Part shown: positions 2,419 to 52,285 of the stretch, piece after piece
Position numbering within the stretch: the first letter of the stretch is position 1
Layout: every line of letters begins with the position of its first letter
Assembly: GCA_009772985.1 (NCBI GenBank)
Contig: WOUS01000003.1
Coordinates: 62,001-126,000 of the forward strand
From: Anaerolineaceae bacterium
GTDB taxonomy: Bacteria > Chloroflexota > Anaerolineae > Anaerolineales > Villigracilaceae
Direction: 5' to 3'
Length of the DNA stretch: 64,000 bases
Position numbers and translations under genes: made by a program
Notes under the pieces: model-generated
The model's input: only the letters and a program-made list of their open reading frames with translations
The model's database searches: none
What the model was told of the DNA's origin: nothing

Positions 2419-3054
2419 ATGAAAATCCACGACATCACCCTCACCATCTCCCCCGCCATGCCCGTCTGGCCGGGCGACCCGCCCGTGACGCTCGAACAGA
2501 TCGAATCCATGGACCGCGGCGCGCACGCCAACGTCACCCGGCTGGACATGTCGGCCCACACCGGCACCCACGTCGACGCCCCGCACCACTTCCTCAACGA
2601 CGGGCGCACGGTGGAAAACCTCCCGCTGGACGTGTTGACCGGCCCCGCCCTCGTCGTCCAACTCCCGAACTCCCTGGACCTCATCACTGCCGCGGCGCTG
2701 GAGGCGGCCTCCATCCCCGCCGGGACCGAGCGCCTGCTCCTGCGCACGCGCAACTCGGACCTGTGGGCGCGCCGCGCAACGGACTTCTTCCCATCCTTCG
2801 TCGGCATCTCCGCTGACGGCGCGGAATGGCTCGTCCGGCGCGGCCTCCGTCTGGTGGGCATTGACTACCTGTCCGTCGCCCCCTTCCAGCAGAGCGAGCC
2901 GACGCACCGCATCCTGCTCGCGGCGGGCATCGTCCTGCTCGAGGGCGCGGACCTGCACACGGTCCCGCCCGGCGCGTACGATCTGTACTGCCTGCCGCTC
3001 AAGTTGCTCGGCAGTGACGGCGCGCCGGCGAGGGCGGTGTTGGTAGAAAAATAG
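2419..3054 (+). CDS. Cyclase-family metal-dependent hydrolase (kynurenine formamidase-like)
   Basis: The 211-residue protein matches the cyclase/KynB fold. The signature SAHTGTHVDAPHHF near residues 44-57 provides the zinc-binding His and Asp residues. The N-terminal stretch ITLTISPAMPVWPGDPP and the C-terminal PPGAYDLYCLPLKL are also typical. Family members hydrolyse N-formylkynurenine, cyclic amides or isatin; no other tryptophan-catabolism gene adjoins it, so the substrate is open. The last 90 bases have a divergent duplicate at 3811-3900, beyond the toxin-antitoxin pair. Confidence 0.8.
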   Translation: MKIHDITLTISPAMPVWPGDPPVTLEQIESMDRGAHANVTRLDMSAHTGTHVDAPHHFLNDGRTVENLPLDVLTGPALVVQLPNSLDLITAAALEAASIPAGTERLLLRTRNSDLWARRATDFFPSFVGISADGAEWLVRRGLRLVGIDYLSVAPFQQSEPTHRILLAAGIVLLEGADLHTVPPGAYDLYCLPLKLLGSDGAPARAVLVEK

Positions 3055-3133: not shown

Positions 3134-3394
3134 ATGATCAACGTTCCCATTGCCGAAGCGCACAACCGGCTTTCGTCCCTGCTCAAGAAGGTTCAGAAAG
3201 GCCCCATCCTTCTCACCCGAAGGGGAAAGGCAGTTGGCGTGATTCTCTCCCCCGAGGAATTCGAGCGCCTGCATCAGTTCGAGGCTTACAACAGCATCGT
3301 GCGGCTTTCGCATACTTTGCGCGAGAGCGGCGTGACCGCATCGGAACTGTACCAGGCCTCCCGCCGGGAATTGGAAGGGGAAAATGATCATTGA
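3134..3394 (+). CDS. Type II antitoxin, Phd/YefM family (VapB-like)
   Basis: This 86-residue protein has the Phd/YefM N-terminal DNA-binding fold: INVPIAEAHNRLSSLLKKVQKGPILLTRRGKAVGVILSPEEFERL. That segment normally binds the operator, and the C-terminal tail normally wraps the toxin. It sits just upstream of a PIN-domain toxin and overlaps it by 11 bases, which indicates translational coupling. A purine-rich GTTGGAGG stretch precedes the ATG. The palindrome at 3103-3121 is a plausible operator. Confidence 0.85.
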   Translation: MINVPIAEAHNRLSSLLKKVQKGPILLTRRGKAVGVILSPEEFERLHQFEAYNSIVRLSHTLRESGVTASELYQASRRELEGENDH

Positions 3395-3803
3395 TGCCGG
3401 TGTACTCCTGAATGCGCTTTTCCCGGACGAAAGCCAGCCTCAGGCGCAGTTGCTCCTGCGCAATCATGCCTCGCAGCAGACGCGCCTCAAGGCTCCTATC
3501 CTGCTGATGTTCGAGGTGAGCAATGCCGTCTGGCAGGCAGAGCGGCGCGGGCGCATCACCGGCCTCCAGGCGGAGGAAATCCTGAGAGCCGCCTCGGCCC
3601 TGGATATCGAACTGTTACCGCTGGGGTGGGGCGAAATGCTGCCTCTGGCGCGCCGCTTCGGGCGCAGCGCCTACGACGCCTCCTACCTGACCCTGGCCGA
3701 GCGCCTCGGCGAACCGTTCATTACCGGCGATGAGAGGCTGTACAATGCCGTTCATCCGAAACTGGATTGGGTGCTCTGGATTGGGGACTATGCTGGCGAA
3801 TAA
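3384..3803 (+). CDS. PIN-domain toxin (VapC-like ribonuclease)
   Basis: The 139-residue PIN protein has the acidic active-site residues in their usual places: the N-terminal MIIDAGVLLNALF, the central Glu in MFEVSNAVWQAE, and the Asp pair of YDASYLTLAERLGEPFITGDERL. VapC-type PIN toxins cut RNA, often tRNA or rRNA, until neutralised by the antitoxin. It overlaps the upstream antitoxin by 11 bases. Directly after its stop lies a 90-base copy of the cyclase gene end, which marks it as part of an inserted cassette. Confidence 0.85.
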   Translation: MIIDAGVLLNALFPDESQPQAQLLLRNHASQQTRLKAPILLMFEVSNAVWQAERRGRITGLQAEEILRAASALDIELLPLGWGEMLPLARRFGRSAYDASYLTLAERLGEPFITGDERLYNAVHPKLDWVLWIGDYAGE

Positions 3804-3810
3804 CTCTAAA

Positions 3811-3900
3811 AAGCCCGGCGCGTACGAACTGTTCTGCCTGCCGCTCAAATTGCTCGGCAGTGATGGCGCTCCGGCGAGGGCAATATTGGTGGGGAAATAG
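3811..3900 (+). pseudogene. Detached 3' end of a cyclase-family gene (duplicate of 2965-3054)
   Basis: Thirty codons starting KPGAYELFCLPLK and ending in a TAG stop align without gaps to the last thirty codons of the cyclase gene. Counting by eye gives about 77 of 90 identical bases, with most differences at third positions. It has no start codon and is a remnant. It lies between the VapBC pair and hsdM and is treated here as a recombination scar. Confidence 0.8.
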
Positions 3901-3992: not shown

Positions 3993-5528
3993 ATGGCAGG
4001 CAAGCAAAAAAACAACGGTGCAACACTGGACTTCGAAGCACAATTATGGGCGGCGGCGGATAAGCTGCGCGGACATATGGACGCGTCGGAGTATAAGCAT
4101 GTGGTGCTGGGGTTGATCTTCCTGAAATATATATCCGATTCGTTCGAAGAAGTTCATGCACAATTAGTCAAAGAAAAAGATGCGAACCCCGAAGACCGGG
4201 ATGAGTATCTGGCGCAGAATATATTTTGGGTGCCGAAGGAAGCGCGCTGGTCATTCTTGCAGGGCAAGGCGAAACAGCCTGAGATCGGGAAATATCTCGA
4301 TGATGGCATGGTTGCCATTGAACGCGATAACCCGACGCTGAAAAATATCCTGCCGAAGGACTTTGCCCGCCCGACGCTGGACAAAATCCGCCTGGGCGAG
4401 TTGATTGATCTCGTAAGCGGAATCGGCTTGGGGTCCAGTGAGAACCGAGCGAAGGATGTGCTTGGGCGCGTCTACGAATATTTCCTGTCCCAATTTGCAA
4501 GCGCGGAAGGCAAGAAGGGCGGAGAGTTCTACACGCCGCAGTCGGTGGTGCGCGTGTTGGTGTCGATGCTGGCGCCGTACAAGGGACGCATCTTCGACCC
4601 ATGCTGTGGATCGGGCGGCATGTTCGTGCAAAGCGAAAAGTTTGTGGAGGCGCACGGCGGCAAGGTGGATGACATCGCCGTGTATGGACAGGAAAGCAAC
4701 CCGACCACCTGGAAACTTGCCAAGATGAACCTTGCTATTCGCGGCATTACCAGCGACCTGGGCAAGGAGAACGCGGATTCATTCCACAGGGATTTGCATC
4801 CCGACCTGAAAGCGGATTTCATTCTCGCCAACCCGCCGTTCAACATGAGCGATTGGGGCGGGGATAGATTGCGCGAAGATAAACGCTGGAAATATGGCGT
4901 GCCGCCGGTGGGCAATGCCAACTATGCGTGGGTGCAGCACTTTATCCATCACCTCGCGCCGAATGGCACGGCGGGATTCGTGCTGGCGAATGGCAGTATG
5001 TCGTCGAACACGTCGGGAGAGGGCGAGATCCGCAAGGCGCTGATCGAAGCGGATATGGTGGATTGCATGGTGGCGATGCCCGGTCAATTATTTTTCTCGA
5101 CGCAAATTCCTGTATGTTTGTGGTTTTTGACGAGGAATAAGAACGATGGAAAAAATCGTAATCGCAAAAGCGAAACCTTATTCATTAACGCACGCAAGAT
5201 GGGAACATTGACCGACCGCGTTCATCGTGATTTGACAGAAGACGATATTGCGAAGATCGCGGATACCTACCATGCGTGGAAGGCGGGAAAGAAATATGAA
5301 GAAGTTGCTGGCTTTTGTAAATCAGCCACGCTGGAAGAGATTCAAGAGCAAGGATATGTGCTCACGCCTGGACGATATGTGGGCGCAACAGAACTCGAAG
5401 AAGATGATGAACCTTTTGAACAAAAGATGGGACGTTTGACGAAAGAATTGGAAGCACAGTTTGAAGATAGTGATAGGTTAGAGAAATCCATTCGTGCAAA
5501 TTTGCAGAAATTAGATTATGGCAAATAA
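3993..5528 (+). CDS. hsdM: Type I restriction-modification system, DNA methyltransferase subunit M
   Basis: The 511-residue protein contains an N-terminal helical HsdM domain ([32 protein letters not shown]), the SAM-binding motif [10 protein letters not shown] near residue 203 and the catalytic NPPF motif of N6-adenine methyltransferases near residue 280. With HsdS it protects the host recognition site, and with HsdR it forms the restriction complex. The ATG at 3993 is preceded by a CTGGAGG ribosome-binding site. Its last 11 bases overlap hsdS. Base composition is clearly lower in GC than in the flanking core genes, which suggests horizontal acquisition. Confidence 0.95.
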
Positions 5529-6756
5529 CTGGACTTACAAAAAGATTGAGGATGTTGCCGAGAAGGTTGGCATGGGTCCTTTCGGTTCTTCAATCAAAGT
5601 AGAAACTTTTGTTCCTACTGGTATTCCAGTTGTTAGTGGTCAGCATTTGCATGGATTTCGCCTTAATGAAAATGCTGGCTTCAATTTTGTTACTGAGGAA
5701 CACGCTGACAAGTTGAAGAACGCCAACGTTTTTCGTGGCGATATTATTTTTACCCACGCTGGAAATATAGAAAATGTTGCATACATCCCCGAAAACTCAA
5801 AGTATGAGAGGTATGTTGCTTCGCAACGACAATTTTATATGCGTTGCGATTTGAGCAAAATATTACCTAGCTTTGTGGTTTATTATTTCAATTCTCATGA
5901 GGGGAAGTATAAACTTACGGCAAATTCATCATCCGTTGGTGTGCCTTCAATAGCTCAACCTGTAAGTTATCTTCGGAAACTTGAAATTCCTGTTCCACCA
6001 CTACCCGAACAACACGCTATTGTGGGGATTCTTGACGCGCTGGACACCAAGATTGAAATCAATCGCCGTATGAATGTCACGCTTGAGTCCATAACGCGGG
6101 CGGTGTTTCGTCAGTGGTTTGTGGAAAATGAAGAAGTAAAGAGTTGGGAAATCCAGACTTTACAACAACATATTGAAGCGGAAAAAGGGCTTAGTTACAA
6201 AGGAGAAGGGCTGTCGAAAGATGGCGGAACGCCAATGCATAATCTAAATTCTGTCTATGAAGGCGGCGGCTACAAATATTCAGGCATTAAATATTACACT
6301 GGCGAATATAGAGAGCGTCATATCATAAATGCTGGGGATATTATTGTAACTAACACAGAGCAAGGTTTTCAATATTTGCTTATTGGATTCCCTGCGATTG
6401 TTCCAAAGCATTTTGGCGGCAAAGGGATATTTACTCATCATATTTTCCGAGTACGTCCTTTGTCAACATCGCCAGTCAAAACACATTACCTTTATTTCCT
6501 TTTAATGAATCCATATGTAAGAGATCAAATTATTGGTTGCACAAACGGAACTACTGTAAACATGCTCAGTGCTGACGGCTTAAGAACACCAAAGTTTCAC
6601 TTGCCGCCAAAACAACTAATTGATGAGTTTGAGAAATTTGCAACACCTATTTTTGAAAAGATGGAATTAATACATGAAGAATCGCGCATGCTGGGGAGTC
6701 TGCGGGATAGTCTGCTGCCGAAGTTGATGAGGGGTGAAGTCCGCGTTGGCGCGTAG
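5518..6756 (+). CDS. hsdS: Type I restriction-modification system, specificity subunit S
   Basis: The 412-residue protein has two target-recognition domains. Each ends in a conserved helical segment: [25 protein letters not shown] in the middle and [17 protein letters not shown] at the end. These helices space the two half-sites and bind HsdM. It is the most AT-rich gene of the operon. The stop codon TAG at 6754-6756 lies inside a GTAGGGGCGGGTCT repeat, so the final residues VGA and the stop appear to come from that element. Confidence 0.93.
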
Positions 6757-6890
6757 GGGCGGGTCTCTCCTGCGGGCAAGACGGTCTGGCTTAACAAGAT
6801 GAATGTCGGGCAAAATATCATTGCAAAACGTGGAGACCCGCCCCTACCCCGTCGGCAATGATAATGTTGGAAAACATGACCCGCCCCTAC
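6753..6890. repeat. REP-like element cluster between hsdS and the transposase
   Basis: GTAGGGGCGGGTCTC (6753-6767) is matched in inverted orientation by GAGACCCGCCCCTAC (6833-6847), with a further GACCCGCCCCTAC at 6878-6890. The sequence between and after the right-hand copies repeats about every 40 bases as variants of CAATGATAATGTTGGAAAAC. The same GTAGGGG/CCCCTAC ends occur at 7203, 40111 and 63324. Such palindromes are the expected substrates of REP-associated tyrosine transposases, and one is encoded immediately downstream. Confidence 0.75.
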
Positions 6891-6923
6891 CACCATCATC
6901 AACAATGATATTATTGGAAAACC

Positions 6924-7455
6924 ATGAAATTCGACCCCAAAATTCACCATCGCCATTCCATTCGATTGCAAGGATATGATTATTCCCAATCGGGCGCGTA
7001 TTATGTCACCATCGTCACGCACGGGCGCGAATGTGTATTTGGCGAGGTCGTCAACGGCAAAATGACATTGAATCAATTTGGTCAAATCGTACAACGCGCA
7101 TGGTTCGATTTGCCGAAACATTATCCACACATTGTATTGGGCACGTTTTGCATTATGCCAAACCATGTCCATGTGGTGATTATTTTGATTGATGGTGGGA
7201 TTGTAGGGGCGGGTCTGAGACCCGCCCCTACAGATGGCGCGCCACCCGTTATCCGAAATCGTGCGCGCGTTCAAATCATTTTCTGCGCGGCGGATCAACG
7301 AATTACGCAAGACACAGGGCATCCCCGTTTGGCAGCGCAATTATTACGAACACATTATCCGCGACGACGAGGAACACAACCGCATTCATCTGTACATCGA
7401 ATCCAATCCCGTCAATTGGCTGGAAGATAACGAAAATCCTGAGATGAAAAAATGA
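6924..7455 (+). pseudogene. REP-associated tyrosine transposase (IS200/Y1 family), frameshifted
   Basis: The first part (6924 to about 7232) carries the HUH motif in CIMPNHVHVV. The second part (about 7234-7455) lies one frame over and carries SEIVRAFKSFSARRINELR and the catalytic Tyr region in WQRNYYEHIIRDDEEHNRIHLYI. A +1 shift near 7233 joins them. It falls next to a perfect 29-base REP palindrome at 7203-7231 inside the gene. RAYT proteins are single-copy domesticated transposases that act on REP sequences. The final ATGA overlaps the hsdR start, so the gene sits inside the hsd operon. It may be dead, frameshift-expressed, or misassembled. Confidence 0.8.
7203..7231. repeat. REP palindrome inside the transposase gene
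   Basis: GTAGGGGCGGGTCT, a single G, then AGACCCGCCCCTAC form 14-bp perfect arms with a one-base centre. On the plus strand it encodes VGAGLRPAPT in the transposase frame. The frame break occurs just after it. Confidence 0.85.
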
Positions 7456-10400
7456 CCCACTTCACCGAATCCATCATCGAAGATACCGCACTCGAATGGC
7501 TCAAAGACCTGGGCTATACCGTCGTCTTTGGCAACGACATCGCGCCTGATGAACCCGCCGCCGAGCGTGAGAATTATGGTGAAGTGATTCTTGCTGAAAG
7601 ATTGAAAGATGCGCTCAAACGAATCAATCCAAGTGTTCCTGCGGAGGCCTTGGAAGATGCCTTCCGCAAGGTAACACGTCCGGGGTCACCTTCTCTGGTG
7701 GGTAATAATCGCTCCTTCCATAAAATGCTTGCCGATGGTATCGAAGTCGAGTATCGCCACGAGGGACGCATCAAAGGCGATAAAGTCTGGCTGATTGATT
7801 TTGATAACCTTGATAACAACGACTGGCTGGCAGTCAATCAATTTACTGTGGTGGAAAACCATATCAACCGCCGCCCGGATGTGGTCATCTTTGTTAACGG
7901 TCTGCCGCTGGCAGTGATCGAACTCAAGAATGCCGCTGATACCAAAGCCACCATCTGGTCTGCATTCAATCAACTCCAAACCTATAAAAACGAAATCACG
8001 CCCCTGTTTGTCTACAATGAAGCCCTGATCATTTCAGATGGCACGCATGCCCGCATCGGCTCGCTGACCGCCGATAAGGAACGCTTCATGCCGTGGAAGA
8101 CCATCGCGGGCGATACGCTGGCAGACGGTCACGCCATCGAGTTGGAAGTGCTCCTGCGCGGTGTCTTCGAGAAACGCCGCTTCCTGGATCTCGTGCGTTA
8201 CTTCATTGTCTTTGAAGATGATGGCGTCGGTCAACCCATCAAGAAGATGGCAGGCTATCACCAGTTCCATGCTGTGAATATGGCAATTGAACAAACCCTG
8301 CGCGCTTCGATGGAAAAAGGCGCGGCAATTTCCGAAAGCCGCGGGCATTATTTCACGCATCCACCCCGCGACGCCAGACCGGGTGACCATCGTATCGGCG
8401 TGGTCTGGCATACGCAGGGTTCCGGTAAAAGCCTGACGATGGCCTTTTTTGCGGGAAGAATTGTCCTGCATCCCGAGATGGAAAACCCCACCATCGTGGT
8501 CATCACCGACCGCAACGATCTGGATGATCAACTTTTCGGCACGTTCTCGCGCTGTAAAGACTTATTGCGTCAATCTCCTGTCCAGGCCGATAGTCACGAG
8601 AATTTAAAAAAATTGCTTCGCACTTCGGCTTCGGGCGGCGTGATTTTTACAACGGTACAAAAATTTATGCCGCCTGTTCTAAAGAAAAATGGCATCAAAA
8701 CCCGCGCGGAAGTTGAGTTACTATCGGAACGGCGCAATATTGTTGTCATTGCCGATGAAGCGCACCGCAGTCAATACGATTTTATCGATGGCTACGCCAG
8801 CGCCATGCACAAGACTTTGCCGAACGCTTCTTTCATCGGCTTTACAGGCACACCGATTGAACTCAAAGATGCCAATACGCGCGCCGTCTTTGGCGACTAC
8901 CTGAGCATTTACGATATCCAGCAGGCAGTCATTGATGGTTCGACTGTGCCAATCTATTACGAAGGCCGCCTCGCCAAACTGGAATTGAAGGAATCGGAAA
9001 GGCCGAAGATCGATCCTGAGTTTGAAGAAGTCACCGAAGGGGAAGAGACAGAAGAGAAGGAAAAACTCAAGACCAAATGGGCCGCCCTCGAAGCCATCGT
9101 TGGCACGGACGAACGCGTTGATTTGATTGCACGTGATTTGCTGAGGCACTTCGACCTGCGTCTCGAAGTCATGGAAGGGAAAGCCATGATCGTGTGCATG
9201 TCCCGCCGCATCTGCGTGGACTTGTACAACGCCATCATCAAACTCCGCCCCGAATGGCATTCGAACGATGACACGCAAGGCGTCATCAAAATCGTGATGA
9301 CAGGCAGTGCCAGCGATACAGACTGGCAAATGCACATCCGAACCAAAGAGCGTCGCGAGAAACTTGCCAACCGCTTCAAAGATTCCAAAGACCTGTTCAA
9401 GGTGGTAATCGTACGTGATATGTGGTTAACCGGTTTCGATGTTCCGTCATTGCACACTATGTACATTGACAAACCCATGCAAGGACACGGTCTTATGCAA
9501 GCTATTGCACGCGTCAACCGTGTGCATGGCGATAAACCGGGCGGACTGATTGTTGATTATCTCGGTCTGGCGTATCACTTGCAACAGGCACTGGCACTCT
9601 ACACGGAAAGCGGTGGTAAGGGCAATACCGCCATCGATCAACAAGAAGCAGTTGCGCTTACTCTGCGCGAATATGAAATCTGCAAAGATTTATTTCATGG
9701 CTTTGATTATTCCAAATGGAAAAACGGCAATGGTGGTGAACAACTCGTTCTGATGAATTGGGCCCAGGATCATATCCTTGGCTTGGAAAACGGCAAGCAA
9801 CGTTATACCCAAACCGTCACACGCCTTTCGCAAGCCTTTGCGCTGGCCGTGCCAAATGAAAGAGTGTTGGCGATCCGCGATGATGTTGGATTCTTCCAGG
9901 CCGTGCGCGCCCGTATTATCAAGTCATCGCCCGAACACGAACTGCAATCCGAGGATATTGAGCAGGCCATTCGCCAGATCATCTCGCGCGCTGTTGCGTC
10001 TGATGAAGTCATTGATATTTTCAAGGCGGCAGGTTTAAAGAAACCCGATATCTCCATTCTCTCGGATGAGTTTTTGGCAGACGTTCAAAACATGCCGCAA
10101 AAGAATGTAGCGATTGAGTTATTGAGAAAACTGCTTAACGATGAGATCAAACTGCGCTCGCGCAAAAATGTAGTTCAATCACGCTCGTTCCTGGAAATGC
10201 TTGAAAGAACGATTCGCTCCTACCAAAACCGCGCCATCGAAGTTGCCGAAGTCATCTCAGAGTTGATTGAACTCGCCAAAGAAATGCGCGCAGCCAGCAA
10301 GCGCGGCGAAGAACTCAAACTTTCAGAAGACGAACTCGCCTTTTATGATGCGCTGGAAGTCAATGATAGCGCCGTCAAGGTATTGGGAGATGACACGCTC

Positions 10401-10604
10401 AAGGATATTGCCCGCGAACTGGTTAAATCAGTCCATGAGAATGCAACCATTGATTGGACGATGAAGGAAAACGTCCGCGCGAAACTACGCGTTATGGTCA
10501 GGCGAATTTTACGCAGACACGGCTATCCGCCCGACAAGCAGGAAAAAGCCACGCAGACTGTTTTAGAGCAGGCCGAAGTCATAGCAAAAGATTGGGCTGG
10601 GTAA
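7452..10604 (+). CDS. hsdR: Type I restriction-modification system, restriction and translocase subunit R
   Basis: The 1050-residue protein has the N-terminal HsdR nuclease core ([17 protein letters not shown], the Asp/Glu-x-Lys nuclease triad). Next come the superfamily 2 helicase motifs: Walker [10 protein letters not shown] near residue 322, [13 protein letters not shown] near 432, FTGTP, and [11 protein letters not shown]-terminal helical domain follows. It pumps DNA and cuts unmodified DNA together with HsdM2S. Translation appears coupled to the transposase remnant through an ATGA overlap at 7452-7455. No inactivating lesion is seen, so restriction is probably functional. Confidence 0.95.
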
Positions 10605-10877: not shown

Positions 10878-10890
10878 TTTGGTTTCCCTC

Positions 10891-10949
10891 GCGCTTCAAC
10901 CCTGCTCAGCGCAAGCCCACCCCAACATCGCGCTGATCAAATACCGGGG
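10891..10949 (+). pseudogene. Detached 5' end of an mvaD gene (duplicate of 12165-12223)
   Basis: The 59 bases encode SLALQPCSAQAHPNIALIKY, and the matching stretch of mvaD encodes AIALRPCSAQAHPNIALIKY. Only about three base differences are visible. The copy breaks off after this stretch and is followed by the Fic gene, then by the complete mvaD. It is a remnant and mirrors the cyclase remnant at 3811 on the other side of the hsd operon. Confidence 0.8.
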
Positions 10950-10999
10950 CGGCCGCTTTCAATTCCTTGTTCCCATAATCTGCCGCGCCGGAAATGCTC

Positions 11000-11005: not shown

Positions 11006-11011
11006 GGGGAC

Positions 11012-12142
11012 ATGAGCAACCCGTTCCTCCTTTGGCAGCCCACATACACCCTCACCTCCCGCCTGGCGCGTTGGTTGATGGACATCGAAGCCGCCCGCGC
11101 CGTGGTGGAGCAGAATCCCCTGCCTCCGGCAGTCGAGGCGGAACTGCGTCAGCGAATCCGCATCCGCGCCACGCATTATTCCACGCGTATCGAAGGCAAC
11201 CGCCTGACCATCGAACAAGCCGCCCAGGTCATCACGGAACAAGAGGCCAAAATACAGGGACGTGAGCGCGACGTGCGCGAAGTGCGCAACTACTGGAACG
11301 CCCTGCTGCGGGTGGAGGAATGGGCCGCGCAGCGAAAACCTTTCACCGAGGAGTTGGTCCGCCGCCTGCACGCCCTGGTCGAACATGGAGCGAGAGCCGC
11401 ACCCACCCCATACCGTGACGGGCAGAACGTCATCCGCGATGCGGCCAGCGGAGGCATCGTTTACCTGCCGCCGGAAGCGAAGGATGTCCCGGCGTTAATG
11501 GCGGCCCTGGTCAACTGGGTGGAACAGGCGGAGAAAGAGAAAGCGCCGGTCCCCATCCTCGCCGGTCTGGCGCATTACCAGTTCGTCACCATCCATCCAT
11601 ATTACGACGGCAACGGCCGCACTGCCCGCCTGCTGGCGACCTTTCTCCTGCATCGCGGCGGGTATGGCCTGCATGGTTTCTTCTCGCTCGAAGAACATCA
11701 CGCCCGCGATCTGGATGCATATTACAAAGCCCTGACCATCCATCCACACCATAACTACTACGAGGGCCGCGCCGACGCCGACCTGACTCCCTGGCTGGCG
11801 TATTTCCTGGGCCTGCTGGCAGACGTGTTCGGCGCCGCCCGCGACGAAGCCTTGCGCCTGATGCAGTCGCCGCCAGCGCCCGAGCCGGAGCATCTGCGCC
11901 GGCTGGATCACCGCGCCCGCGTCGTCCTGGGACTGTTTGCCCGCCAGGAAGAGATCACGGCATCCCAGGTGGCGCAGGTACTGGGGCTGTCCGAACGCAT
12001 GGCGCGCAACCTGCTGCAAGAATGGACGGCAGACGGCTGGCTCGTGGCGACCGATCTCTCCCGCCGCAAGCGCGCCTACGGCTTATCGGAAATTTATCGG
12101 CAATCCATCGGCAATTTATCGGCAATTCCGTCAAAAAAATAA
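11012..12142 (+). CDS. Fic-domain protein (probable AMP transferase)
   Basis: The 376-residue protein contains the Fic motif HPYYDGNGRTARLL, with the catalytic His and the phosphate-binding GNGR loop. The inhibitory helix motif STRIEGN near the N terminus is typical of self-inhibited Fic proteins. A C-terminal winged-helix-like segment (ITASQVAQVLGLSERMARNLLQEW) follows. Fic enzymes transfer AMP or related groups to target proteins; the target is unknown. The start is set at 11012 because TATAAT lies six bases before it, although an in-frame ATG exists at 10994. It lies between an mvaD remnant and intact mvaD, so it is part of the accessory island. Confidence 0.88.
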   Translation: MSNPFLLWQPTYTLTSRLARWLMDIEAARAVVEQNPLPPAVEAELRQRIRIRATHYSTRIEGNRLTIEQAAQVITEQEAKIQGRERDVREVRNYWNALLRVEEWAAQRKPFTEELVRRLHALVEHGARAAPTPYRDGQNVIRDAASGGIVYLPPEAKDVPALMAALVNWVEQAEKEKAPVPILAGLAHYQFVTIHPYYDGNGRTARLLATFLLHRGGYGLHGFFSLEEHHARDLDAYYKALTIHPHHNYYEGRADADLTPWLAYFLGLLADVFGAARDEALRLMQSPPAPEPEHLRRLDHRARVVLGLFARQEEITASQVAQVLGLSERMARNLLQEWTADGWLVATDLSRRKRAYGLSEIYRQSIGNLSAIPSKK

Positions 12143-12143
12143 C

Positions 12144-13148
12144 ATGCCACCTGCCTCCGCCATCGCGCTTCGACCGTGCTCAGCGCAAGCCCACCCCAAC
12201 ATCGCGCTGATCAAATACTGGGGCAACCGCGACGAAGCCCTGCGCCTGCCGGCCAACGGATCCATCTCGATGAACCTGGCCGGGCTGGAAACGCGCACGT
12301 CAGTAACGTGGGACGAGAAACGAGTGGCGCGCGGCGATGCGTTTAACCTGAATGGCTCCCCCGTCACCGGGCCGGGGCTGGAGCGTGTGTCGGCCTTCCT
12401 CGACCTGGTTCGCAAAATGGCGGGATTCGATTTCCGCGCGGACGTGGTCAGCGTCAACAACTTCCCCGCCGGGGCCGGGATCGCGTCGTCGGCGTCGGCC
12501 TTCGCGGCGCTGGCGCTGGCCGCGGCAAAAGCCGCCGGGCTGGACCTTGCCGAAGCGGACCTCTCACGGCTGGCGCGGCGCGGCTCCGGGTCTGCCTGCC
12601 GCAGCGTGCCGGGCGGATTCGTGGAATGGGCCGCGGGCGCGTCCGACGCGGATTCCTTCGCCGTCTCCATCGCCCCGCCCGAAGGCTGGCCGCTGGTGGA
12701 CATCATCGCCATCGTCAGCGAGGCGCACAAATCCACCGGCTCCACCGAAGGCCACGCGCTGGCCGCCACCAGTCCGCTCCAGGGGGCGCGCGTGGCAGAC
12801 GCGCCGCGGCGGCTGGACCTCTGCCGCGACGCCATCCTGAAACGCGATTTTGCCGCGCTGGCCGAAGTGACCGAACTCGACTCGGCGCTGATGCACGCCG
12901 TGATGATGACCTCCACGCCGCCGCTGTTCTACTGGCACGCGCCCACGCTGACGGTCATGCAGGAAATCCGGCTGGCGCGGGCGCAGGGACTGGCCGCCTG
13001 CTGCACCGTGGACGCCGGGCCGAACGTCCACGTGATCTGCGAAGCGGACGCGGCGGAGGCAGCGGCCAGGTTGATCGCGGACATGCCGGGGGTCCGGGAA
13101 GTGCGCCGCGCACAGGTCGGGGGTCCCGCGCACATCGAGTCAGATTAA
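12144..13148 (+). CDS. mvaD: Diphosphomevalonate decarboxylase
   Basis: The 334-residue GHMP-kinase-fold enzyme has the family signatures AHPNIALIKYWGNRDEALRLP, SISMNL, the ATP-binding FPAGAGIASSASAFAALALA, RRGSGSACRS, and the C-terminal TVDAGPNVHVI. It decarboxylates mevalonate 5-diphosphate to isopentenyl diphosphate with ATP, in the cytosol. The start ATG lies one base after the Fic stop. No other mevalonate gene is in the window. A near-identical copy of its 5' end lies upstream of the Fic gene at 10891, showing that the insertion boundary is at the 5' end of this gene. Confidence 0.93.
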   Translation: MPPASAIALRPCSAQAHPNIALIKYWGNRDEALRLPANGSISMNLAGLETRTSVTWDEKRVARGDAFNLNGSPVTGPGLERVSAFLDLVRKMAGFDFRADVVSVNNFPAGAGIASSASAFAALALAAAKAAGLDLAEADLSRLARRGSGSACRSVPGGFVEWAAGASDADSFAVSIAPPEGWPLVDIIAIVSEAHKSTGSTEGHALAATSPLQGARVADAPRRLDLCRDAILKRDFAALAEVTELDSALMHAVMMTSTPPLFYWHAPTLTVMQEIRLARAQGLAACCTVDAGPNVHVICEADAAEAAARLIADMPGVREVRRAQVGGPAHIESD

Positions 13149-31953: not shown

Positions 31954-32063
31954 GGTTCATTGGGAGTTGCCGCGACGCGCCACTATATTTGGTGGTCTGC
32001 TGTGGGACAAATTGGCAATTTGTCCTACATGTGCTGGTCTATCACGGCGATTCCCAGAGACCC
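31954..32063. mobile_element. 110-base MITE-like element, copy 1
   Basis: This 110-base segment, starting GGTTCATTGGGAGTTGCCG and ending in CCCAGAGACCC, is matched at 38711-38820 with a single visible difference. Its two ends are imperfect inverted repeats (TGGGAGTTGCCGTGAC against TGGGAATCGCCGTGAT). Its centre is the palindrome GGACAAATTGGCAATTTGTCC. It encodes no protein. Confidence 0.8.
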
Positions 32064-32080
32064 ATTTAATCTTATGGGGG

Positions 32081-38580: not shown

Positions 38581-38888
38581 GCGACACCTCCAAAAAAACG
38601 AAAAGCCAAAAGAGGAACGCGGATTACGCGGATTTTGCGGATTACGCCGATGTTTTCTGAAAGAATCCGCGAAATCAGGTAAATCGGCAAAATCCGCGTT
38701 GAGCTTTCTGGGTTCATTGGGAGTTGCCGTGACGCGCCACTATATTTGGTGGTCTGCTGTGGGACAAATTGGCAATTTGTCCTACATGTGCTGGTCTATC
38801 ACGGCGATTCCCAGAGACCCGATTTCTGTGAGCGCAACAAACTGTCAGGGTGCCAGAAAACGAAAAGCAAAAGACCGGCGGAGACTTG
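38581..38888. other. Gene-free stretch filled by repeats
   Basis: From left to right it holds AAAAAAACGAAAAGC words and an ATCCGCG/CGCGGAT palindromic block (about 38613-38698, with ACGCGGATT at one end and AATCCGCGT at the other). These are followed by the second 110-base MITE-like copy (38711-38820) and another short A-rich GAAAAGCAAAAG word near 38865. No promoter or gene is recognised apart from the ribosome-binding site of the left-hand gene. Confidence 0.7.
38711..38820. mobile_element. 110-base MITE-like element, copy 2
   Basis: Matches 31954-32063 in the same orientation at 109 of 110 positions by eye. The near identity indicates recent duplication or active mobilisation. Confidence 0.85.
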
Positions 38889-48682: not shown

Positions 48683-48767
48683 AAAATCGAGAGCAACAGA
48701 GCGCATCCGTATAAGCGCCATCGAGTGTCTGCCAAATCCAATCCCTGATACGAAGAAAGGACTTGTC

Positions 48768-50426
48768 ATGAAAGTGTTCCTGAATCCCTCGAAGATTTCG
48801 TTTCGCAAATCGGACGGCAACCTGACGCCCGAGCAGCAACTGGAAATCCTGCAAAAAAGGCTGGTTGGCGGGAACCAGCCTGTCCGCCCCGGCGACTCGC
48901 TGGAAGATATCAGGAAATTCCTGGCGATGCGCGCAGCCAAAGCCGGGCAGGAGGCCCTGCGGGCGCTGCCGGTCCACCCGAGGGAGCCGTATCGCGTCAA
49001 GGCGGTGGAAATACGGGGGGCATTCCCGACTTACAAGACAAGGTTCGAGGCCATCCAGGAGGCCGGGTACAACACGTTCCTGTTGAGCGAAAAGCACAAA
49101 CCCGTCATCTACATGGACCTGTTGACCGACAGCGGCACGTCCGCGATGAGCGACCTGCAATGGTCGGCGATGATGCGCGGCAACGAGGATTACGCCGGGT
49201 CGAGAAGTTTCTATCCGCTCGAAGCGGCGGTGAAGGATATCTACGGCTGGAAGGAAGTGATCCCCACCCACCAGGGACGCGGGGCGGAGCATATCCTTTC
49301 GAGCATCTACATCAAGCCCCTGCTGGCGCAATATCCGGGCGATCCCATCTACGTGCCGAAGAACATGTACTTCACCACCACGAAGGTGCACATCCTGAAA
49401 GCGGGCGGAACGTTCGTTGACATCATCATTGACGAGGCGCACGATCCCACCGTTTTGCTGCCCTTCAAGGGAAACGTGGATTTGAAGAAACTCCAGAAGT
49501 TGATTGACGACTGCATCGAGAAATGGGGAAAAGAGCACGGCCCGCGCCACATCGCCTACGTCCATCTCGAAGGCTGCGTCAACATGGCGGGCGGACAGCC
49601 GTTCTCGATGGAAAATCTCAAAGCGGTGCGCGCCCTGACGAAAAAATACGGCATCCCGCTGACGCTGGACGCGACGCGGGTGGCGGAGAACGCCTATTTT
49701 ATCCAGCAGCGCGAGCCGGGTTACAAAAACAAGACCGTCGCCCAGATCGTGCGCGAAATCGGCGGCCTCACCGACGGCTGCACGATGAGTTCCAAAAAGG
49801 ATCACCTCGTCAACATCGGCGGATTCCTGGCGCTCAACGACGCGGAGAAAGCCGTCAAAGCGCGGGAAATGCTCGTGGATTTCGAAGGGTATCCCACTTA
49901 CGGCGGGATGGCCGGCTACAGCATGGAAGCCCTGGCCCAGGGCATCCGCGAATGCGTGGACGATGAATGGATGGCCTACCGTATTGGACAAACGCAATAC
50001 CTGGGACAAATGCTCCAGCTGGCGAACATCCCCATCGTTGTGCCGGTCGGAGGCCACGCGGTCTTTATTGACGCCAAGAAATTCCTGCCGCATGTTCCCC
50101 AGGAACAGTTCCCGGCCCAGGCGCTGGCGGCGGCTCTCTACCTGGAAAGCGGCGTCCGGGCGATGGAACGGGGCATCGCCTCAGCCGGGCGCGACCCCAA
50201 GACCGGCCTCAACAATGTCCCCAAACTGGAACTCGTCCGGTTGACCATTTCACGGCGCGTCTATACCCAGTCGCACATGGATTACGCCGCGGAGAAGGTC
50301 GCGGAACTGTACCAGAAGCGGGAAAAGATCCACGGGCTGGACATCGCCTGGGAACCCCCGGCCGGCTCGCTGCGCTTCTTCCTGATGAGACACAAACCCG
50401 TTGGCGGTAAACTCATCGCCGAGTAG
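48768..50426 (+). CDS. Beta-eliminating lyase (tryptophanase / tyrosine phenol-lyase family) with N-terminal extension
   Basis: The 552-residue PLP enzyme has DLLTDSGTSAMSD, GSRSFYPLE, THQGRGAEHILS, TLDATRVAENAYFI and the PLP-lysine region SSKKDHLVNIGGF. These are closest to tyrosine phenol-lyase/tryptophanase. These enzymes split aromatic amino acids into pyruvate, ammonia and phenol or indole. Known members are about 460-470 residues; here about 75-80 extra residues precede the usual start near EPYRVKAVE. The gene stands alone, without a TnaB-type permease. Confidence 0.88.
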   Translation: MKVFLNPSKISFRKSDGNLTPEQQLEILQKRLVGGNQPVRPGDSLEDIRKFLAMRAAKAGQEALRALPVHPREPYRVKAVEIRGAFPTYKTRFEAIQEAGYNTFLLSEKHKPVIYMDLLTDSGTSAMSDLQWSAMMRGNEDYAGSRSFYPLEAAVKDIYGWKEVIPTHQGRGAEHILSSIYIKPLLAQYPGDPIYVPKNMYFTTTKVHILKAGGTFVDIIIDEAHDPTVLLPFKGNVDLKKLQKLIDDCIEKWGKEHGPRHIAYVHLEGCVNMAGGQPFSMENLKAVRALTKKYGIPLTLDATRVAENAYFIQQREPGYKNKTVAQIVREIGGLTDGCTMSSKKDHLVNIGGFLALNDAEKAVKAREMLVDFEGYPTYGGMAGYSMEALAQGIRECVDDEWMAYRIGQTQYLGQMLQLANIPIVVPVGGHAVFIDAKKFLPHVPQEQFPAQALAAALYLESGVRAMERGIASAGRDPKTGLNNVPKLELVRLTISRRVYTQSHMDYAAEKVAELYQKREKIHGLDIAWEPPAGSLRFFLMRHKPVGGKLIAE

Positions 50427-50465: not shown

Positions 50466-50466
50466 A

Positions 50467-50541
50467 TCATTTCACCTTGTCCACAAACTCCCGCGCGGCG
50501 CGGGCAGGCGACATCAGGCCGCGTCCCTGCGCGGAGAGGCA
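50467..50541 (-). pseudogene. Detached 3' end of a ParB-like gene (duplicate of 51440-51514)
   Basis: On the minus strand it reads LSAQGRGLMSPARAAREFVDKVK and a stop. This is nearly the same as the last residues of the intact ParB-like protein, LSAQGRNLMSPARAAREFVDKVK. About 61 of 71 aligned bases agree. It lies on the other side of the BrnT-BrnA pair from the intact gene and marks the insertion of that pair. Confidence 0.8.
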
Positions 50542-50747
50542 GCCCTTTGGCGGATTCTACCTTTGGCTTTTTCCCGCCAACCCCACGCTGCCATCGAGCC
50601 ACGCCTTAAGCCCGCTCGTAACATCATAAAGGGTTCGTAAAAGAATAAATTCCCTTGTTCGGATGCAGTTGGACTGCATCCTGCTCGCAGTGCAACTGCT
50701 CGCGAACAAAAATACGGGAAGTTATTTATTTTCAGACCCAAACGGAC

Positions 50748-50776
50748 TTGCAAGACTGTCAAGGAAAGGCTATACT
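50748..50776 (+). promoter_or_regulatory. brnT promoter, leaderless arrangement
   Basis: TTGCAA (50748-50753), 17 bases, TATACT (50771-50776), then six bases (ACGTCC) to the ATG at 50783. The complete -35/-10 pair makes this the clearest case of the leaderless pattern. Confidence 0.7.
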
Positions 50777-50782
50777 ACGTCC

Positions 50783-51076
50783 ATGAAGTTCGAATGGGAT
50801 AAACAGAAAAATAGAGCCAACGTCGAAAAGCATGGATTGGATTTCGCTGACGCGTGCAAGGTTTTTGAATCCCCCATGCTGGTCCGGTTGGATGACCGCA
50901 AAGACTACAGCGAAAATCGTTGGATTGGTATTGGTTTGCTGGATATGCGTGCTGTTGTAACCGTGTTCGCCGAACCAAAAGAAAACACTATCCGAGTAAT
51001 TTCCTTCCGAAAAGCCACAAGCGACGAAAGAAAACGATATGAACAAGCCTACAAAAACGAATTTGGAACATTTTGA
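50783..51076 (+). CDS. brnT: BrnT-family ribonuclease toxin
   Basis: The 97-residue protein matches BrnT: FEWDKQKNRANVEKHGLDFADACKVF at the N terminus, DDRKDYSENRWIGIGLL in the middle and VISFRKATSDERKRYEQ at the end. BrnT is a RelE-like mRNA-cleaving toxin. It precedes its antitoxin, the usual order for this family, and overlaps it by 38 bases. Confidence 0.92.
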   Translation: MKFEWDKQKNRANVEKHGLDFADACKVFESPMLVRLDDRKDYSENRWIGIGLLDMRAVVTVFAEPKENTIRVISFRKATSDERKRYEQAYKNEFGTF

Positions 51077-51299
51077 TTCGATGACCGATGACATGATTGA
51101 TACTTCGGAAATTCCGCCGCTGACCGAAGAGTTCTTCGCCGCGGCAAAATGGCGAATGCCAAAGCCGAAAGTAAAGGTAACGGTGGAAGTCGAACCCGAC
51201 GTAATAGAATGGTTTAAGGCTCAAGGCGAAAATTATCAGCGTGATCTCGCGGCCGCCCTGCGAATATACGCTCAAGCCCATCAAGCGTTCAAGAAATAG
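51039..51299 (+). CDS. brnA: BrnA-family antitoxin
   Basis: The 86-residue protein has the BrnA signature DDMIDTSEIPPLTEEFFAAAKWRMPKPKVKVTVEVEPDVIEWFKAQGENYQRDLAAALRIY, a tail-type ribbon-helix-helix DNA-binding fold. It neutralises BrnT and usually represses the operon. The start is taken at 51039, within brnT, because BrnA homologues keep the residues before MTDD. After its stop the gap to 51439 holds an A/T-rich GCTTTTCGTGTTTTG repeat and nothing else recognised. Confidence 0.9.
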   Translation: MNKPTKTNLEHFDSMTDDMIDTSEIPPLTEEFFAAAKWRMPKPKVKVTVEVEPDVIEWFKAQGENYQRDLAAALRIYAQAHQAFKK

Positions 51300-51439
51300 G
51301 AGGCAGGCTGATATCGAACGAATGAAGGCCGACTCCTCAGAAGACGATTCCGCCCCACTGCGCCAGCCGGGGCGGAAACTTTTTTTGCTTTTCGTGTTTT
51401 GTTTTTCCCGCCCCCGCCGTCTCCAGCAGCGACTTGCGA

Positions 51440-52285
51440 TTACTTCACCTTGTCCACAAATTCGCGCGCCGCGCGGGCGGGGGACATCAGGTTGCGTCCT
51501 TGCGCGGACAGGTAACGCTGGCGGTCGAGGATCCAAAGATAGAGGTCGCCTTCGGTCTTGCCGGGGAACTCGCGCAGCACCCCGCTTCGGCGGATGACGC
51601 CAACGATGGGCAGGTAAACCCTGTCGTACCAGTGCGCCACGGCCTCCTGCTCGGAGATGTCGCGCTGGAGGTCGAGGCCCATGAAATAGCGGTGGACGGC
51701 GACGTGTTCGAGCATCCGGTCGAAGCCGTCGGGGATGGTCAGTTTGATGGCGGCCTTCGGGCGGATGCGGTCCAGGCCGGTACGTTCGAGGAAGTCCACT
51801 TTTTCGCCGAGGATCTCCAGGTCTTCCGGTTTGAGGTCCGGCGTGATGTTGACCCGGGTCTGGCACTCGCGCACGTCGGCGTCTATGAACTCCTGCCCCT
51901 GCTCGCGCGCCACCGAGACGCGGTGGTGGCCGTCCACCACGAAGTACACGTCGCCGACCTTGTAAAGCACCACCGGGGGCAGGCTGATGTCCTGGTAGAA
52001 GGCGCGGTCCACGTTCTGCCAGCGGTTGGCGATCTGGTCTTCGAGCGGCAGGAAGGCGCGGTCGAACTGGTGGTAGCGGTTGAGGCTGCCGGCAATCTTC
52101 TCGATGGGGACGGTCTTGACGCCGCGATAGATCGGCCCGCCGATGCGAAGTTTCTCCTTGACTTCATCATAGGAGAGCAGCGTTTTCGGCTGGCCGGCCA
52201 GCGCGCCGCGGGCGCGGTTCAGGAAGGCTTTGAAGCGGGCGCGGGCGAAGTCCGCTTTGACGCGCGAGGCAAGGTTATCGAACAT
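51440..52285 (-). CDS. ParB-like-domain protein
   Basis: The 281-residue protein has a ParB-type core: VPIEKIAGSLNRYHQFDRAFLPL, then YFVVDGHHRVSVAREQGQEFIDADV, which carries the CTPase/nuclease-like GHHR motif. There is no helix-turn-helix domain of chromosomal ParB and no parA nearby. A CTP- or nucleotide-dependent switch is a family-based guess. Its start overlaps the end of the upstream phosphoesterase by 11 bases. A divergent copy of its C-terminal codons lies at 50467. Confidence 0.75.
   Translation of the reverse strand: MFDNLASRVKADFARARFKAFLNRARGALAGQPKTLLSYDEVKEKLRIGGPIYRGVKTVPIEKIAGSLNRYHQFDRAFLPLEDQIANRWQNVDRAFYQDISLPPVVLYKVGDVYFVVDGHHRVSVAREQGQEFIDADVRECQTRVNITPDLKPEDLEILGEKVDFLERTGLDRIRPKAAIKLTIPDGFDRMLEHVAVHRYFMGLDLQRDISEQEAVAHWYDRVYLPIVGVIRRSGVLREFPGKTEGDLYLWILDRQRYLSAQGRNLMSPARAAREFVDKVK

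Follow-up and report, generated by a model that had tools for sequence, protein, structure and literature searches.

Toxin-antitoxin cassettes bordered by diverged copies of a neighbouring gene end in an Anaerolineaceae genome

We analyzed a contiguous stretch of 64 kb, referred to as the window, from a genome of 3.03 Mb. An intact ParB-like gene lies on its minus strand (51440-52285, an open reading frame of 281 aa). No Pfam family was found for this gene at E<=0.001 and its name is used without Pfam backing. Beyond its 3' end, between two copies of that end, lie two adjacent, overlapping genes on the plus strand, coding for a predicted BrnT toxin (50783-51076; PF04365, E 2.4e-25) followed by a predicted BrnA antitoxin (51039-51299; PF14384, E 7.9e-10). 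Judged by Pfam, this cargo appears to be an ordinary member of its type II toxin-antitoxin family, with only its borders being unusual. The interval between the outer gene-end copy (the remnant) and BrnT contains a long imperfect palindrome (50631-50738), which folds at -48 kcal/mol, occurs as a single copy in 1.13 Mb of the genome and has a partial match in one other locus (L029). Neither terminal inverted repeats nor an IS-like structure spanning BrnTA was found at the cassette ends. A tRNA-associated integration was rejected, the only tRNAs of the window being located at 19 kb.

The cassette is bordered by a direct repeat of 81 nt with 83% identity (50466-50546 and 51439-51519). Its BLAST core in a self-comparison of the window covers 69 nt at 87% (E 1.8e-16). 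When the end of the ParB-like gene was queried against the whole 3.03 Mb genome, only these two strong places and one weak 50-nt match elsewhere were obtained. In the intact gene the repeated segment corresponds to the last 25 codons (51440-51514). The second copy (50467-50541, minus strand) reads CLSAQGRGLMSPARAAREFVDKVK and the intact end YLSAQGRNLMSPARAAREFVDKVK, each followed by a stop. Only a few bases from the stop codon the similarity is lost. The original prediction of a repeated ParB-like gene end flanking a BrnT-BrnA pair is thus confirmed for the repeat as well as for the Pfam-supported cargo. Its description of the 50467 copy as decayed is overstated, because this copy runs in frame to its own TGA stop and 9 of the 11 differing codons are synonymous (TAA/TGA stop pair included).

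Same-genus relatives that have the locus show the order phosphoesterase, parB, dapA-like gene and lipoate ligase-like gene, or have parB directly before the ligase-like gene. The phosphoesterase-parB order is conserved in the relatives. In the present genome parB is separated from the lipoate ligase-like gene by BrnTA, the remnant and a convergent gene for a beta-eliminating lyase. The latter gene (tryptophanase-like, 48720-50426, PF01212) follows the remnant and occupies the dapA-like position of the relatives. BrnTA was found beside parB in no relative examined, which suggests that the site is accessory in this genome. Since these relatives are only distantly related (about 80% aa) and another gene lies downstream here, they provide no clean empty site. 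An assignment of the two parB ends to donor and recipient was rejected for the same distance of the relatives. VapBC beside the cyclase gene and Fic beside the decarboxylase gene, the two arrangements described below, were also seen in no relative examined.

Two further cassettes of the window are located on the plus strand. An intact cyclase gene (2419-3054, PF04199) is followed by a predicted Phd/YefM antitoxin (3134-3394; PF02604, E 2.9e-14) and a predicted PIN toxin (3384-3803; PF01850, E 5.2e-07). This pair (3134-3803) sits between two cyclase gene ends (2967-3054 and 3813-3900) which are 87.5% identical over 88 nt, and the second end finishes exactly at its own TAG stop. In the other cassette a Fic/DOC family gene (11009-12142; PF02661, E 4.4e-19) lies between two starts of a diphosphomevalonate decarboxylase gene. 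The partial copy (10886-10956) matches the 5' part of the intact gene (segment 12160-12230 of gene 12144-13148) at 91.5% over 71 nt, and the differences show no synonymous bias. All three cassettes for which a duplicated neighbour gene end had been claimed are therefore bordered by real repeats, but the Fic case involves a gene start and not a gene end. With its 5' position and its lack of synonymous bias it looks like the product of a different history from the 3'-end cases. The region from 3993 to 10604, with the cyclase remnant on one side and the partial decarboxylase start on the other, holds a putative type I restriction-modification-like gene set and, inside it, an apparent small transposase gene (6924-7430).

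It had been proposed to search the genome for other cassettes with duplicated gene termini. A self-comparison of 1.13 of the 3.03 Mb, with genes from a simple home-made caller, indeed yielded about 15 repeats that occur in two copies, measure 50-165 nt and border cassettes of 0.5-7 kb. In most of them one copy is the end or the start of an intact gene, and several end at or just beyond the stop codon without running into intergenic DNA. Their cargo includes MNT/HepT, a Phd/YefM antitoxin and a DUF433 protein, but also genes without such a function. None of the toxin-antitoxin cassettes was found to contain an integrase, and their repeats derive from a different gene each time. For comparison, 400 kb of a genome of the same family (G017) contained one or two such cases, and no remnant-type case was found in 400 kb of a genome from another family of the same order (G057). 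Dispersed families were set aside, for example the 115-nt repeat at 31954-32067 and 38711-38825, whose copies are 98% identical and which has 19 matches in the 1.13 Mb. One pair on another contig of this genome (G000 contig C3, 60254-60391 and 64970-65107) has identical copies for about 95 nt and a sudden onset of divergence after that, as though a crossover point had been preserved.

In a survey of same-family genomes, again with a home-made gene caller, the flanks of toxin genes, 1.5 kb to either side, were set against the equivalent flanks of control genes. Direct repeats spanning the genes were present at 17 of 82 toxin-antitoxin loci and at 1 of 85 control loci (p = 2.5e-5), and the strict form, in which a gene 3' end is duplicated across the cassette, at 8 of 82 and 0 of 85 (p 0.003); both p-values are descriptive only, because the thresholds for length, identity and gene ends were fixed after the BrnT, HepT, glyoxalase and parB loci had been inspected, and because two loci of one genus (L184 and L188) probably represent one insertion. 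By toxin, spanning repeats were observed for BrnT (8/25), HepT (6/30), PIN (1/19) and ParE (2/8); by control, for glyoxalase (1/28), acetyltransferase (0/29) and parB (0/28). The groups that were added later gave 3/27 (PIN and ParE) versus 0/29 (acetyltransferase). Some of the spanning repeats are intergenic and not gene ends. The repeat pattern recurs in other Anaerolineales genomes.

At least two loci show serial stacking at one gene end. L186 has the order ATPase-like gene, BrnTA, remnant, AbrB-type antitoxin with PIN-like gene, remnant. L280/L400 in genome G067 has the order methylmalonyl-CoA-mutase-like gene, antitoxin with PIN-like gene, remnant, Phd-like and PIN-like genes, remnant. Of these, the BrnT and PIN genes are the ones that had been searched for; the other names come from our reading of the proteins and not from Pfam. 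At L186 1333-3085 and L400 2726-4535, two distinct toxin-antitoxin pairs stand at one gene 3' end, each followed by its own gene-end copy. Extra mutase-like gene ends at distances of 0.8-1.8 kb were seen in G067, G086, G105, G063, G014 (apparently three copies) and the present genome, and several remnants begin about 95-105 nt before the stop. In genus g17, G105 carries the mutase-like gene, a Phd-like gene, a remnant and an L9-like gene, and the corresponding position in G069 is taken by an unrelated gene. A single event, passed on by shared descent, may account for some of the mutase-end insertions. With 108 nt to go by, tracing the mutase remnants to a donor genus was rejected, as identities of 83-90% fail to separate the genera. 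The places in several genera where a mutase-like 3' end is repeated beside cassettes include 234879-236888 of contig C9 of the present genome (G000; 74% over about 210 nt), L396, L397, L398 and L404.

The remnants are 57-174 nt long (mean 102). Over 19 gene-end pairs the differences between the copies number 41/24/117 at codon positions 1/2/3; 115 of the differing codons are synonymous and 45 nonsynonymous. Under neutrality, modeled by random mutation of the intact codon with mutation bias ignored, 35.6 synonymous codons are expected. Restricting the set to 16 3'-end cases, with L188 dropped as the orthologue of L184, gives 31/16/105 by position (105/152 at the third position, p about 3e-19) and 103:31 synonymous to nonsynonymous codons (103/134 synonymous). 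From this excess we conclude that most of the 3'-end divergence arose while both copies were working gene ends. The two 5'-start cases, the Fic case included, together give 8/7/6 by position and 5:13 synonymous to nonsynonymous codons; to judge by these codons, their copies do not appear to have diverged mostly while functional. For the parB and cyclase pairs the changes could be polarized: 9 are derived in the remnant (4 synonymous) and 8 in the intact gene (7 synonymous). These nearly equal numbers fit two diverged alleles and not one decaying copy, although the nonsynonymous share on the remnant branch (5/9) indicates that part of its divergence is decay after the event. In one isoleucine codon the cyclase remnant retains the state common to 8/8 relatives and the intact gene is derived. 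The original prediction of a shared mode of integration thus stands in so far as the pattern is found again across the genome and the family, with an enrichment at toxin-antitoxin loci; it has to be modified in that the copy is mostly a diverged functional end, the Fic case apart.

Based on these comparisons we propose that BrnTA probably came to lie beside the ParB-like gene when two diverged alleles of the latter recombined, with the tip of the other allele left behind. Incoming DNA from a related lineage would bear the cassette beside its own version of the parB 3' end, and pairing would take place within the shared gene. The product would be a full-length gene ending in one allele's version, the cassette, and the last ~75 nt of the other allele. 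Host homologous recombination with one homologous and one illegitimate end, or a single crossover of a circle, would either do. Toxin-antitoxin pairs would punish their own loss through recombination between the repeats and might therefore be retained and enriched, which is an argument and not a result. The recurring layout suggests that toxin-antitoxin pairs come in linked to the neighbouring gene end as it exists in a related strain. Horizontal transfer of the second allele, host homologous recombination and addiction as the cause of retention are the parts of this scheme that we infer. A ComEC-type protein encoded in the genome is compatible with DNA uptake, yet such proteins are common in bacteria. 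Several observations speak against the allele scheme: the narrow range of remnant lengths is not predicted by plain one-ended illegitimate joining, 5 of the 9 remnant-branch changes are nonsynonymous, the two 5'-start cases lack a synonymous bias, and the lyase gene in the dapA-like position leaves no clean empty site.

The clustering of remnant lengths around 100 nt would fit a strict long target duplication, in which the insertion duplicates about 100 nt of the target and the outer copy later decays. The layout is as reported for restriction-modification genes (PMC3031569, PMC1643837), and codon-blind decay fits two 5' cases, one of them the Fic/decarboxylase pair. We nevertheless regard this course as rather unlikely, since the 3'-end copies differ mainly at synonymous sites with changes symmetric between the copies, and since in several pairs the similarity ends at the stop codon without extension into intergenic DNA. 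The common orientation of the two copies would also result from a tandem gene duplication with decay of one copy and insertion of BrnTA in between. That the same short tail is left in many unrelated genes, and that toxin-antitoxin loci are specifically affected, makes such an origin very improbable.

The serial arrays bear on two other explanations. Integron-like and Xer-type systems typically rebuild the 3' ends of genes and form serial arrays, and a recombinase acting in trans at attachment sites of such modules could integrate cassettes site-specifically. The repeats, however, are the coding ends of genes unrelated to one another, inspection by eye showed no motif common to their boundaries, and the toxin-antitoxin cassettes of 0.5-1 kb carry no recombinase gene, so that we give this possibility hardly any weight. 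In an integrase-free mobile circle, a toxin-antitoxin pair with a gene tip of 60-170 nt would exit between the copies and re-enter the same gene end elsewhere. The similar inner boundaries within the arrays at one gene end (L186, L280/L400), the extra mutase-like gene ends in six genomes of several genera and the narrow repeat length would agree with it. Repeats that are more than 10% diverged recombine poorly, though, and some mutase-end insertions may be one inherited event; we consider the circle quite improbable. In a broader form of this idea, integrase-free toxin-antitoxin cassettes of the Anaerolineales would use the 60-170 nt tip of a host gene as a homing arm, exit between the copies, enter that gene end again in another strain or species and stack in series; this seems unlikely to us.

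These observations bear on how chromosomal toxin-antitoxin pairs spread without transposases. Our partial coverage of the literature turned up no earlier account of xenologous gene-end repeats around toxin-antitoxin pairs, and no direct precedent for their insertion with a duplicated gene end. The gene-end scars are a countable trace of each arrival, and their synonymous differences indicate that the two copies had separated before the insertion took place. If recombination between diverged alleles is the origin, "long target duplication" can be tested as a case of recombination with diverged relatives, and recent insertions can be located by their scars independently of annotation.

Several known systems resemble the arrangement in part. 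In the work of Kobayashi and colleagues, restriction-modification genes were reported with target duplications that are long and variable, and insertion with long target duplication is known from Helicobacter pylori (Nobusato et al. 2000, Gene 259:99; Furuta et al. 2010), as given in PMC3031569 and PMC1643837. There, as here, a small addiction-type unit has target DNA directly repeated on both sides, in copies that are long and variable. The cargo of our cassettes, however, is toxin-antitoxin genes, and the 3' repeats have diverged mostly at synonymous sites, which argues against a fresh duplication. The 3'-end copies thus do not look like the outcome of a one-time duplication at insertion, with which the two 5' cases are compatible. 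Unlike integron gene cassettes, the units are bordered by different coding ends, without a shared motif by eye and without an integrase in the cassette. The T6SS immunity arrays of Vibrio cholerae, explained by homology-facilitated illegitimate recombination (PMC5361080), share with our loci the one-sided homology, the displaced older gene ends that remain and the serial arrays. Their leftovers are whole immunity genes, whereas those described here are ~100-nt tips of unrelated housekeeping-type genes.
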